A DNA stretch of 41,372 bases from Gammaproteobacteria bacterium. Its GTDB lineage: Bacteria; Pseudomonadota; Gammaproteobacteria; GCA-001735895. Each line of letters opens with the position of its first letter. Position 1 is the first letter of the stretch. This document shows, piece after piece, positions 7,086 through 41,235 of this stretch. The notes below the pieces were generated by a model. The model saw only the letters and a list, made by a program, of their open reading frames with translations, was not told the DNA's origin and made no database searches. A program made the position numbers and the translations under genes. The stretch lies in NCBI GenBank assembly GCA_024232855.1, contig JAAEPH010000330.1:1-41372 (forward strand). The letters run 5' to 3'.

Positions 7086-7247
7086 GAGTTTACACTTCGT
7101 TTAGCGGGCCGACGATTCGGGGTATAGCACCAAAAGCAGGCGCTTTTGGGCGACGCACGGAACTGTTTCCGAGTACGACTGCATGGACGCAGGAGGTAGA
7201 GCAATGCTGGAGCAATTGCCGAGGAAACCGGTGATATATGCGGGCTA
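7086..7247 (-). repeat. Dispersed palindromic element, copy A (rpmH-dnaA gap)
   Basis: Read on the minus strand it starts TAGCCCGCATATATCACC and continues with CTCGGCAATTGCTCC, GCATTGCTCTACCTCC and CATGCAGTCGTACT. The same blocks occur in the same order in the copy at 41030. It also holds CCCGCTAAACGAAGTGTAAACT, shared with the copy at 30807. It has no matching second terminal repeat that I can see, so its inner end (near 7086) is approximate; similarity may extend somewhat further. It lies between the divergent rpmH and dnaA promoters. A minus-strand open frame across it is judged not to be a gene. Confidence 0.7.
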
Positions 7248-7304
7248 ACGGCCGATACGTAGTGATTAACACGCAAAACATTGCTGATTTTCGAATTCGC
7301 CTCT

Positions 7305-10128: not shown

Positions 10129-13616
<3,488 letters not shown>

Positions 13617-13627
13617 CAACTTCTTGA

Positions 13628-13671
13628 TTTTATTGAAATAATCCCTATATATAGGGATTATTTCAATAAAA
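13628..13671. terminator. 44-bp perfect palindrome after gyrB
   Basis: Two 22-base arms, TTTTATTGAAATAATCCCTA plus TA and its exact complement, meet with no spacer. As RNA it would form a long AU-rich hairpin with a short CCC/GGG core, beginning in a U run and ending in an A run, so it could terminate transcription from either side. It ends 12 bases before the lemA start. Confidence 0.6.
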
Positions 13672-13683
13672 AGGATAAACCCA

Positions 13684-14259
13684 ATGGATATTGCCAGCAT
13701 TATATTCTGGGCTGTGGTGGTAGGGTTGGCGCTGTATGTCATCGGTATATACAACCACCTGGTGCGACTCAAGCACAATGTTTCGAAGGCCTGGTCAAAC
13801 ATTGATGTTTTACTCAGGCAACGCCACGATGAAGTTCCGAAACTGGTCGAAACCTGCAAGCAATACATGAAATTTGAGCAGGACACCCTGGAAAAGGTCA
13901 TGCAAGCGCGTTCGCGAGTTTCCGAGGCAAGGCAGAGTCAGGATGTCCCCGGTCTCGGTCTGGCTGAGGGAGCGCTGCGTATGGGGCTGGGGCAGCTGTT
14001 TGCGCTGGCCGAGGATTACCCGGAACTGCGCGCCAATGAAAACTTCCAACATTTGCAGGGGCGCATTTCCGCGCTCGAAAACACCATCGCCGATCGCCGC
14101 GAATTTTATAACGAATCCGTGAATATCAATAACATCGGCATCGAAACATTCCCCGACCTGATCGTGGCCAGGTTATTTGGCTTTGGTTCCCGTGATCTGC
14201 TCGAGTTCGAAGCCAGTGAAATTGAGGATGTCAGCGTAAAACAATTGTTCGAAACCTGA
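13684..14259 (+). CDS. lemA: LemA family protein
   Basis: A 191-residue LemA-family membrane protein with one N-terminal membrane helix (about residues 5-22) and then a long helical domain: YNHLVRLKHNVSKAWSNIDVLLRQRHDEVPKLVETC, LFALAEDYPELRANENFQ and LENTIADRREFYNESVNINN are family hallmarks. Its molecular role is not established. The ribosome binding site AAGGA is well placed. It is followed by a GIDE-domain protein, a pairing seen in other bacteria, suggesting a joint role at the envelope. Confidence 0.92.
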   Translation: MDIASIIFWAVVVGLALYVIGIYNHLVRLKHNVSKAWSNIDVLLRQRHDEVPKLVETCKQYMKFEQDTLEKVMQARSRVSEARQSQDVPGLGLAEGALRMGLGQLFALAEDYPELRANENFQHLQGRISALENTIADRREFYNESVNINNIGIETFPDLIVARLFGFGSRDLLEFEASEIEDVSVKQLFET

Positions 14260-22824: not shown

Positions 22825-23292
22825 ATGATTATTCGCCGCGCACTCGCACAAGACGCTGCCGAGCTGGCCGAGTTTAACATCAACATGGCGCGTGAAACCG
22901 AGTCCATCGAACTCATACCCGAGGTGATCGGCGCCGGCGTCAGGACCATGATCGAAAATCCACAGATGGGCTTTTATCTGGTCGTCGAACTCGACAACGG
23001 CATCCAGGCTTCGCTGATGATCACGACCGAATGGAGCGACTGGCGTAATGGCATGTTCTGGTGGATTCAAAGTGTTTACGTGCGCCCGCAGTATCGTCGC
23101 CAGGGCCTCTACCGGGAACTCTACGCCCGCGTCAAGGAACTCGCGGAACAGGAGCCGACGGTATGCGGCTTTCGCCTCTACGTCGAAAACGAAAACGTCC
23201 AGGCGCAAAAAACCTACCAGTCGCTGGGGATGTCCGAAACCGAGTACAAGGTGTTTGAAGAACTCAAGCAGGACCTCGAATATCGGAAATAA
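22825..23292 (+). CDS. GNAT family N-acetyltransferase
   Basis: A 155-residue single GNAT domain. MIIRRALAQDAAELAEFNINMA starts the fold. The acetyl-CoA-binding motif is WIQSVYVRPQYRRQGLYRELYARV (V-x-P-x-x-R-x-x-G), followed by FRLYVENENVQAQKTYQSLGM. The substrate cannot be inferred; it may act on a small molecule or a protein N-terminus. The short gap after ylqF and the ribosome binding site ACAGGAGATA suggest co-transcription with it. Confidence 0.88.
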   Translation: MIIRRALAQDAAELAEFNINMARETESIELIPEVIGAGVRTMIENPQMGFYLVVELDNGIQASLMITTEWSDWRNGMFWWIQSVYVRPQYRRQGLYRELYARVKELAEQEPTVCGFRLYVENENVQAQKTYQSLGMSETEYKVFEELKQDLEYRK

Positions 23293-23298
23293 TGCCAT

Positions 23299-23376
23299 TT
23301 AACCCGCATCGCTCACCGTTTGCGTGCAGTGAAGCGGATTCCCGCTTGCGCGCCAAACGAGCGGGTAATATAGTTA
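23299..23376 (+). repeat. Dispersed palindromic element, copy D (partial)
   Basis: TTAACCCGCATCGCTCACCG matches the 20-base terminal repeat of the copy at 30807 at 18 positions. Only one end is evident. The rest holds CCCGCT...AGCGGG arms (about 23341-23366) that could form a hairpin and may terminate the ylqF-GNAT transcript. It sits directly before the TPP riboswitch. The right boundary is approximate. Confidence 0.6.
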
Positions 23377-23380
23377 GTCC

Positions 23381-23475
23381 TCCTCAACGGGGTGCTCATT
23401 CCGAGCTGAGAGTTGTCTTGCCGACATCAACCCGATGAACCTGATCCAGTTAATACTGGCGTAGGGATGTGAGTG
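23381..23475 (+). ncRNA. TPP riboswitch (THI element)
   Basis: It contains the conserved TPP aptamer pieces in order: GGGGTGC, GCTGAGAG, ACCCGATGAACCTGATC, and GTTAATACTGGCGTAGGGA. CTCA near the 5' end can pair with TGAG at the 3' end to close P1. It lies about 55 bases before thiB and should reduce expression of the thiamine operon when TPP is abundant. No intrinsic terminator with a U run is evident between it and thiB, so control is probably at translation start, as is common in Gram-negative bacteria. Confidence 0.95.
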
Positions 23476-23529
23476 GATCCGAATATCCCCCACCCTCCGT
23501 TTATTCATTCCAGCTAGATGGAGACCAAT

Positions 23530-24537
23530 ATGTATTCCTTTTTTTGCAGCACCGGCACAGGCCTGGCGTTGTTGTTGCTTTCCTTTAACCTGCAGGCGGC
23601 GCCTCCCAACCTGGTCGTCTATACCTACGACTCTTTCACCAGCGAGTGGGGTCCCGGTCCCCAGGTGAAGACCGCCTTCGAGGCGAAATGCGCCTGCACG
23701 CTCGAACTGGTGGGTCTTTCCGACGGAGTCGCCATGCTTAACCGGTTGCGCCTGGAGGGCAGCAACAGCCGTGCCGATGTTCTGCTCGGCCTCGATACCA
23801 ACCTGACCGCCGAGGCGCGCGCCAGCGGGCTCTTCGAGCCTCATAACCTGACGCTGCAGGCCAGTGCGTTGCCCAGGCCGTGGCGGGACGACCTGTTTCT
23901 GCCCTATGATTTTGGTTACTTCGCTTTTGTTTACAATCGCGAGAAGCTCGCCAGTCCGCCGCCGAGCCTGCGTCAGTTGGTAGGCGACCCGAACGGACCG
24001 ACCATTCTGATACAGGATCCGCGCACCTCGACCCCGGGTCTCGGGTTGCTGCTGTGGATGAAAGCGGTGTTCGGTGACGAGGCGGATGAGGCATGGGCGA
24101 GCCTGTCGCCGCGGGTGGTCACGGTCAGCAAGGGTTGGAGCGAAGCCTATGGTTTGTTTCTCAAGGGCGAAGCCGACATGGTGTTAAGCTATACCACCTC
24201 GCCGGCCTACCACATCATCGCCGAACAGGACGGCCGTTACGCCGCGGCGCCGTTTAGCGAGGGCCACTATCAGCAGATCGAGGTTGCCGGCATGCTGCGC
24301 AGCAGCCGGCAAAAGAAACTGGCGGGTGAATTTCTCGAATTCATGCTAAGCGACGATTTCCAGCAGATCATTCCCACCACCAACTGGATGTATCCGGCGG
24401 TCGTGAGCGAGTCCGTGCTGCCGGCGGAATTTGGCGAGTTGATCGATCCCTCTCCCGCGCTGCTGCTCGAGGAAACGCAGGTAGCCAGGGAGCGCAAAGC
24501 CTGGGTCGATGATTGGCTGGAGGTTATGTCGCGCTAG
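23530..24537 (+). CDS. thiB: Thiamine ABC transporter substrate-binding protein
   Basis: A periplasmic binding protein of 335 residues with a signal peptide (hydrophobic stretch LALLLLSFNL, likely cut after QAA). The mature start LVVYTYDSFTSEWGPGPQVKTAFEAKC, then LNRLRLEG and ADVLLGLD, is typical of ThiB. It delivers thiamine and possibly its phosphates to ThiPQ. The ATG at 23530 has GGAGA five bases before it. The ATG at 23518 would add four residues and lacks such a site. First gene behind the TPP riboswitch; it ends 3 bases before thiP. Confidence 0.95.
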   Translation: MYSFFCSTGTGLALLLLSFNLQAAPPNLVVYTYDSFTSEWGPGPQVKTAFEAKCACTLELVGLSDGVAMLNRLRLEGSNSRADVLLGLDTNLTAEARASGLFEPHNLTLQASALPRPWRDDLFLPYDFGYFAFVYNREKLASPPPSLRQLVGDPNGPTILIQDPRTSTPGLGLLLWMKAVFGDEADEAWASLSPRVVTVSKGWSEAYGLFLKGEADMVLSYTTSPAYHIIAEQDGRYAAAPFSEGHYQQIEVAGMLRSSRQKKLAGEFLEFMLSDDFQQIIPTTNWMYPAVVSESVLPAEFGELIDPSPALLLEETQVARERKAWVDDWLEVMSR

Positions 24538-30806: not shown

Positions 30807-30990
30807 CTAGCCCGCATCGCTCACCGATTTCCTACTGCGGACGCCGCAAAGCGCACTGTGGCGCGCCGTACTCCCGTCGGCCCGCTAAACGTAGTGTAAA
30901 CTACGCCGGCGCGGACCTCTGGTCCGTGCGGCGCGCCACAGCGTCTTTGCAACGCCCTCGCTACGTGAAACGGTGAGCGATGCGGGCTAG
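30807..30990. repeat. Dispersed palindromic element, copy B (complete, 20-bp terminal inverted repeats)
   Basis: The ends are CTAGCCCGCATCGCTCACCG and its exact reverse complement. The interior is also an imperfect palindrome (TGTGGCGCGCCG near the left, matched near the right), with nested stems CGTAGT-GTAA-ACTACG and GGACCTCTGGTCC. The whole 184 bp could fold into one long hairpin. It encodes no protein. The right end is two bases from the stop codon of the unknown gene at 30993, and the left end lies 35 bases upstream of the SDR start. Confidence 0.85.
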
Positions 30991-30992
30991 CG

Positions 30993-31328
30993 TTACTGGT
31001 AGATCAGCTCGAGCGTTTGCGGGCTTGTATTGCGGTTGCTGATCGCATGCAAGCCCAGCACTCCCTTGGTATCCTGCCGTATCTCGATAAATACCTGGCT
31101 GTCTGGAACCGTCAGTCTATCCACCAGCGCGAACGCGTCGGCATGCTGATTGTAAACGACGACCGCCTCGGGCCGGGCATCGAGACTGACCTGCAGTTGA
31201 TGCTGATCAAGGCAGGGTTCGCAGTCGGCGGCGCCCGGCATTAACAGCGCCACCAGCGGTTGCGCCTCCAGGTTTACGGCGCGGGTGATAATCCGGTAAC
31301 TGCAACTGCGCTGGATGGTCAATGTCAT
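30993..31328 (-). CDS. Unknown protein following gatB
   Basis: A 111-residue protein I do not recognise. It is rich in beta-forming residues with no signal peptide or membrane helix, and it contains CEPC (near residue 37), a possible metal or redox pair. The ATG lies two bases after the gatB stop, so it is probably the fourth gene of the gatCAB operon. The reading frame ends at TAA, two bases from the palindromic element. It does not resemble a GatCAB component. Confidence 0.65.
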   Translation of the reverse strand: MTLTIQRSCSYRIITRAVNLEAQPLVALLMPGAADCEPCLDQHQLQVSLDARPEAVVVYNQHADAFALVDRLTVPDSQVFIEIRQDTKGVLGLHAISNRNTSPQTLELIYQ

Positions 31329-40289: not shown

Positions 40290-41033
40290 ATGAAATTTCA
40301 AAGTTTGCTGTTTGTGCTACTCGCTCTGCTCAGCCTTGCTTCCGGCGCTCGCGCCGAGCTCAAGGATCAGGGGTTGAGTTCGATCATGGACATCATTGAC
40401 AAGGCTATCGCCGAGCTTGAGCAGCATGCCGGCGAAGGTAATTCGGATATCGACCCCACCGACCTCGAAAATGCACTCAAGAATGCGTCCAATGCCGTGA
40501 TCAGCCTGTCGCGAACGCTGGGAACCTTGAGCTATTCACGCCTGCAGTGCGGGCAGGCGGAGGTGCTGTCAGAGTTCACTCGGCGTGTGCAATTGATGCC
40601 GGATGACAGCCGCGACCCGATGCGCGATGCCTTTCAGGAAGGTTTCGACAAGAGCAAGGAAGAAACCCCGCTGTTATCCGAGGATGAATGCCAGCGCCTG
40701 ACGCGTTCGCGTTTGCGCACCGAAGCCACCGAACAAGCCAATGTACAGCAGGAAAAGTCCACCGCGGCGGCCGAGGAGCCGGTGGTCGAAGAAGTTGTTG
40801 AGGAACTACCGGCCGAAGATCCGAAGTTTCGCCACTTACGCGTCGCCGAGCTTTCCGGACAACTCGCCTACAAGCGCCGTTTTTGCGCCGACGAAAAGGT
40901 TTTCAACCGCGACTACAACGAATACCTCGAATCTATTCCCGAAGACTATTGGGAAGAAGCGAAAACCGCCTACTGGAAGGGTTACAAGCACGGCAAGCGC
41001 CTTAATAAAAACCTGACCCGGGATCAGTGCTAG
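40290..41033 (+). CDS. Secreted unknown protein with a duplicated two-cysteine module
   Basis: A 247-residue protein with a signal peptide (about residues 1-22, ending ARAE). No known family is recognised. Two similar segments follow: one begins LSYSRLQCGQAEVL and ends LSEDEC, with 48 residues from cysteine to cysteine; the other begins LAYKRRFCADEKVF and ends LTRDQC, with 49. Between them is an acidic, Ala/Glu/Val-rich linker (about residues 145-178). Each module shares Y-x-R-x-x-C, a central P-D/E and a G-F/Y. The stop codon TAG lies inside the terminal repeat of the palindromic element at 41030, so the true end may have been altered by an insertion. Confidence 0.75.
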   Translation: MKFQSLLFVLLALLSLASGARAELKDQGLSSIMDIIDKAIAELEQHAGEGNSDIDPTDLENALKNASNAVISLSRTLGTLSYSRLQCGQAEVLSEFTRRVQLMPDDSRDPMRDAFQEGFDKSKEETPLLSEDECQRLTRSRLRTEATEQANVQQEKSTAAAEEPVVEEVVEELPAEDPKFRHLRVAELSGQLAYKRRFCADEKVFNRDYNEYLESIPEDYWEEAKTAYWKGYKHGKRLNKNLTRDQC

Positions 41034-41235
41034 CCCGCATATCTCACCACCGTTCTCGGCAATTGCTCCTGCATTGCTCTACCTCCGGAACGCCGGACCG
41101 CTGCATCCATGCAGTCGTACTGCGGCGCCGCTATGCCGCACCCTGCCTGGCTTTCACTCGGTCAGGGCGCTCAACATAGTGTAACTATGCCTGCGCACTC
41201 TTCGGTCGCGACAAATCTGCCGGGAGCAGATTTGA
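41030..41235 (+). repeat. Dispersed palindromic element, copy C
   Basis: It begins CTAGCCCGCATATCTCACC and shares with the copy at 7086 the blocks CTCGGCAATTGCTCC, GCATTGCTCTACCTCC and CATGCAGTCGTACT in the same order, then a diverged part (AGTGTAACT, AAATCTGCC). The interior has local stems such as AAATCTGCCGGGAGCAGATTT and GGCGCCGCTATGCCGC. The right end is not sharply defined. Its first bases supply the stop codon of the preceding gene. Confidence 0.7.

Follow-up and report, generated by a model that had tools for sequence, protein, structure and literature searches.

The palindromic repeat at positions 30807-30990 of the window (the whole analysed stretch of 41,372 nucleotides, contig C327 of a 4.15-Mb gammaproteobacterial assembly of 546 contigs) is very probably a MITE (a short, non-coding DNA transposon with no transposase gene of its own), which is moved in trans by IS1380-family transposases and inserts at YTAR sites. 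This reading is supported by many further copies, by the occurrence of the same ends on elements that carry a transposase gene, and by empty sites with a target duplication. According to the proposed mechanism, IS1380-family (DDE) transposases would recognise the terminal repeat RCCCGCATNNCTCACC and act in trans, insertion would occur at YTAR sites, mostly CTAG, and only TA would be duplicated. The family appears to be new, while the kind of element is an ordinary and well-known one.

The element and its copies in the window

The element is bounded by a perfect 20-bp inverted repeat, CTAGCCCGCATCGCTCACCG (left) and CGGTGAGCGATGCGGGCTAG (right) being exact reverse complements of each other, as the original prediction had read directly from these positions; the element proper is probably 30810-30987 (Table 1). 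At 184 bp the unit falls in the size class of MITEs (~30-300 bp), and no transposase gene is present, the length being too small for one. The predicted fold of this strand is one long hairpin of -119.2 kcal/mol over 184 nt, compared with -72.2 +/- 4.3 kcal/mol for dinucleotide shuffles (z -10.9), which bears out the self-complementary interior proposed earlier. No match to Rfam was found on the 184-bp element, and thus its assignment to a known RNA family is not supported.

The end motif occurs six times in the window at up to three mismatches, with 0.1 occurrences expected. All four sites of the previously claimed four copies were recognised, although only the one at 30807-30990 is a complete copy. 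Two other features were observed in the window: a TPP riboswitch (RF00059, 73 bits; 23378-23485, plus strand), located just downstream of the solitary end and before ORF 23518-24537, and a perfect 44-bp AT-rich palindrome (TTTTATTGAAATAATCCCTATA/TATAGGGATTATTTCAATAAAA) at 13628-13671, between ORFs 11208-13616 and 13684-14259.

Table 1. Features of the putative MITE and of related copies in the window
Feature	Position	Strand	Basis
Complete 184-bp putative MITE of subfamily A, flanking CTAG included on both sides	30807-30990		Sequence, fold, homologues, orthologous empty sites
Left TA, putative target duplication, CTAG context	30808-30809		Left/right 4-mer statistics, 78 elements
Left terminal inverted repeat (GCCCGCATCGCTCACCG; IS1380-family end type)	30810-30826	+	Sequence, IS1380 end comparison
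Non-coding hairpin interior	30827-30970		Fold; strong two-sided covariation of helices, 19 copies
Right terminal inverted repeat, exactly complementary to the left	30971-30987	-	Sequence
Right TA, putative target duplication, CTAG context	30988-30989		Left/right 4-mer statistics, 78 elements
Decayed copy of hybrid subfamily (A interior and C-type end), one recognisable end	7089-7248		75% to L007 element over 7089-7247; repeats I1, I2, I8
Solitary end of an element, with 22 of its first bases and no recognisable interior	23299-23321		Repeat and end-motif searches
Partial copy of hybrid subfamily with one intact and one decayed end	41030-~41196		72% to L007 element over 41030-41196; ORF list

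Distribution and subfamilies

In the genome, the 15-bp end CCCGCATNNCTCACC (at most one mismatch) is matched 132 times on either strand, and its reversed pattern, used as a control, 0 and 1 times; 61 matches are listed for the 184-bp query, the other full-length ones from 92% identity down. Dozens of two-ended copies are dispersed in the genome, with at least three different interiors behind common ends: A (184 bp), B (~168 or 214 bp) and C (~105-125 bp), as well as A/C mosaics. One example of each subfamily was more stable than its own shuffles (A, z -10.9; B, z -4.4 for the first 150 nt; C, z -7.3). Identities within subfamily A span from 92% down to ~71%, which, together with the mosaic subfamilies, fits the several rounds of spread and decay suggested earlier. 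Subfamily A has a match in 15 of the 39 genomes searched, including the source genome and others of the genus; viral contigs gave no match to the 19-bp end.

The probable IS1380-family partner

Exact 19-bp ends were found in other Gammaproteobacteria. Their distance to the end of the contig is often ~130-150 bases, which is expected for a longer repeated element, and at one such locus a C-terminal portion of an IS1380 transposase adjoins the repeat end. In the surveyed PF13701 genes, MITE-type ends precede the open frame by ~54 bases and follow it by ~235 bases. Two elements from the same class (L312, 1746 bp, and L314, 1756 bp) carry open 486-aa IS1380 frames and have CTAG adjoining CCCGCATTTCTCAC on both sides. 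In the same genus, an IS1380 copy of 982 bp that has lost internal sequence (L165, genome G023) has the ends CTAGCCCGCATATCTCACCACCGG and CTAGCCCGCATCGCTCACC; its left 23 bases are those of window positions 41030-41052, and its right 19 bases are those of the ends of 30807-30990. Transposase-bearing elements with the same ends, named in the original prediction as a possible check, thus exist in the class and, in deleted form, in the genus. Further cases, one-sided, are L122, L124, L127 and L136. The transposases match NCBIfam transpos_IS1380 (NF033539) and PF13701 (DDE_Tnp_1_4), the deleted copy and the C-terminal fragment scoring under the curated cut-off because they are short. By blastn, the MITE shares only ~19-23 terminal bases with the IS, and derivation of its interior from an IS1380 gene was rejected since the ends alone are matched.

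No intact IS1380 element with exactly the MITE ends CCCGCATMKCTCACC was found in the 546-contig assembly of the source genome. The one long IS1380 gene there, on C23, ends differently (CCCGAATGTTTCAT), and the copy on C11 is broken, so neither could be taken as the immediate source; repeated IS copies could be missing from an assembly in so many contigs. The right end of the C23 gene (L101; G000:C23:1-1500), CTAG followed by CCCGAATGTTTCATAAACCC, represents a second end type of the same family with the same CTAG border. A separate observation concerns a Sedimenticola MAG (L045/L124), in which a Y1-type (HUH) transposase-like gene lies beside a truncated IS1380 gene.

Empty sites and target duplication

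Empty sites were sought for seven elements with queries composed of flank, CTAG-type site and flank, and relatives were found to align continuously across the junction. The window locus is present without the element in four genomes (G013, G056, G019 and G031), where both flanks align at ~75% identity; at this level, the precise sequence into which the window copy was inserted is not certain. Paralogous empty sites are provided by a palindromic host repeat with GGCGACTAGCGGCAGG in its loop, which is empty in at least six copies (on C479, C82, C232, C204, C304 and C453), and whose CTAG is filled by MITEs on C97, C415, C12 and, probably, C44. This host repeat is itself a second palindromic family (GGGGTTTGCGCGCAGGCGACTAGCGGCAGGATAGCCGCGGGACCGGGCC...) with about a dozen copies in the source genome (L293, L295, L299-L302 and the flanks of L016, L017 and L079), and MITEs have landed repeatedly at the CTAG in its loop. 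Target duplications and empty sites, proposed earlier as a further check, are thus both present.

The comparison covered 78 elements with YTAR on both sides, of which 41 have CTAG/CTAG borders. Single departures from CTAG fall on the outer base in 14 cases and on the inner base in one (binomial p = 0.001; 78 elements). Duplication of the whole CTAG would give equal numbers of inner and outer departures, and the ratio of 14 to 1 speaks against it; a 4-bp duplication with overhangs carried from the donor makes the same prediction and is disfavoured on the same ground. The pattern is best fitted by a duplication of TA only, in which the target would contribute the outer bases and the element the inner R...Y pair. 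The sites of two elements, L098 and L091, read CTAA in G054 and G014, respectively, in agreement with TA-only duplication. This reading stays conditional, as old copies mutate and the inner bases are unmatched in 10 of the 78 elements. For published members of the IS1380 family, direct repeats of 4-5 bp are given (ISPa33a 4, ISPsp9 5) (PMC4133298).

Insertion at stop codons

Three copies were claimed to lie near gene 3' ends, and this was confirmed: the right edge of the complete element (30990) and the stop of ORF 30993-31328, on the minus strand, are 3 bp apart, the solitary end at 23299 begins ~7 bp after ORF 22825-23292, and the copy at 41030-41196 supplies the TAG stop (41031-41033) of ORF 40290-41033. 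Of 80 element sides tested (~42 elements), 14 have a border TAG or TAA that terminates an ORF of 120 codons or more, compared with 6 and 7 for the other two frames; about a third of insertions are on the stop codon of such an ORF, a suggestive rather than strong result. Since YTAR contains TAG or TAA, the target itself would explain the copies near gene 3' ends, and an insertion on a stop codon leaves a stop in place, which would help to explain why it is tolerated.

Covariation of the hairpin arms

The arms were compared in 19 subfamily-A copies (positions 1501-1684 of L001 and 18 others). The predicted hairpin has 88% of its cells paired, changes on both sides occur in 22 of 71 pairs versus 12 in shuffles, and double-change cells number 81 versus 28.5 in shuffles and 10-20 in slid controls. 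The 13 own copies contain six private two-sided compensatory changes along with 34 private one-sided ones, while independent mutation would, by our estimate, give well under one private two-sided change. This covariation exceeds what simple decay of dead copies predicts; possible causes are selection on the hairpin, arm-to-arm correction in replication and descent from source copies outside the sample.

Such covariation, a very stable hairpin and frequent siting at stop codons would also be compatible with a host role, in which the hairpin acts as a terminator or a stabiliser of mRNA 3' ends, like a large REP/BIME, and is not primarily mobile. We consider this improbable, given that the ends are common to IS1380 elements, that the target-site pattern and the empty orthologous and paralogous sites speak for insertion, that unrelated interiors stand behind identical ends and that Rfam gave no match. 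The element might still have a secondary effect on transcripts.

With the element taken as an IS1380-dependent MITE, a wider model may be offered tentatively. This branch of the IS1380 family might duplicate TA only, the neighbouring R and Y coming from the element, and the arms of hairpin MITEs might be kept matched by arm-to-arm correction (template switching in replication) or by selection on the hairpin; one set of ends could thereby have spread several palindromic interiors unrelated to each other.

Comparison with known elements

A TA target is associated with IS630, and Correia, RUP and similar TA-flanked elements are MITEs of IS630/Tc1-mariner-type transposons. The apparent duplication of TA within a CTAG context would therefore suit a MITE of this type as well, with the likeness to IS1380 ends arising by chance. 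Yet DDE_3 (PF13358) genes were detected in only 3 of the 31 genomes of the genus, none of the eight PF13358 loci of the genus has the end motif correctly placed, and no IS630-type element with GCCCGCATNNCTCACC was found among them, whereas IS1380 genes have the motif at a fixed distance in many genomes. Judged from these sequence comparisons, the IS630 alternative appears largely refuted and very improbable. The original prediction had left the choice between a MITE and a large REP-type unit; the former stands, and the latter is not supported by size and ends. REP/BIME are palindromes of 20-40 bp linked to a RAYT transposase; a length of 184 bp, IS1380-type terminal inverted repeats, target duplication and an IS partner are those of a MITE.

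Regarding the IS1380 family itself (NF033539, DDE_Tnp_1_4), transposase-bearing elements share with the MITE the terminal repeat CCCGCATNNCTCACC and the CTAG borders; unlike them, the MITE has no gene. TA fits its duplication better than CTAG, in contrast to the 4-5 bp of published members. Correia/CREE, RUP and ERIC are long intergenic hairpins with TA-type borders and high copy number. The present family resembles them in size, hairpin, intergenic position, borders and copy number but differs in having an IS1380 partner, the IS630-type genes of the genus being without MITE ends (the MITE definition used in this comparison is that of PMC4133298). MITEPye1 (IS1182-related) and TIMEs (Tn3-related) are likewise non-autonomous, with IS-type ends and a long RNA stem-loop, but depend on other transposase families, have other ends and target duplications, and are present in few copies per genome.

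The original suggestion that the family is undescribed agrees with a literature search for its ends: no description of the family or of its end sequences was found in the papers searched, most subscription journals and ISfinder lying outside the search. The literature matches for IS1380 together with MITEs that were examined concern other partners, and no paper joining IS1380 with piggyBac and TTAA was found in the literature searched.

Significance

The finding carries a warning for annotation, as a gene's stop codon can be provided by an element inserted at CTAG behind it. It adds a high-copy MITE family with, very probably, an IS1380 partner, no MITE being described for IS1380 in the papers searched. 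The many copies and empty sites in 31 genomes of one genus form a clean data set, which may serve to test the target duplication made by IS1380 transposases and to study the origin of palindromic MITE interiors and how their palindromic form is maintained.
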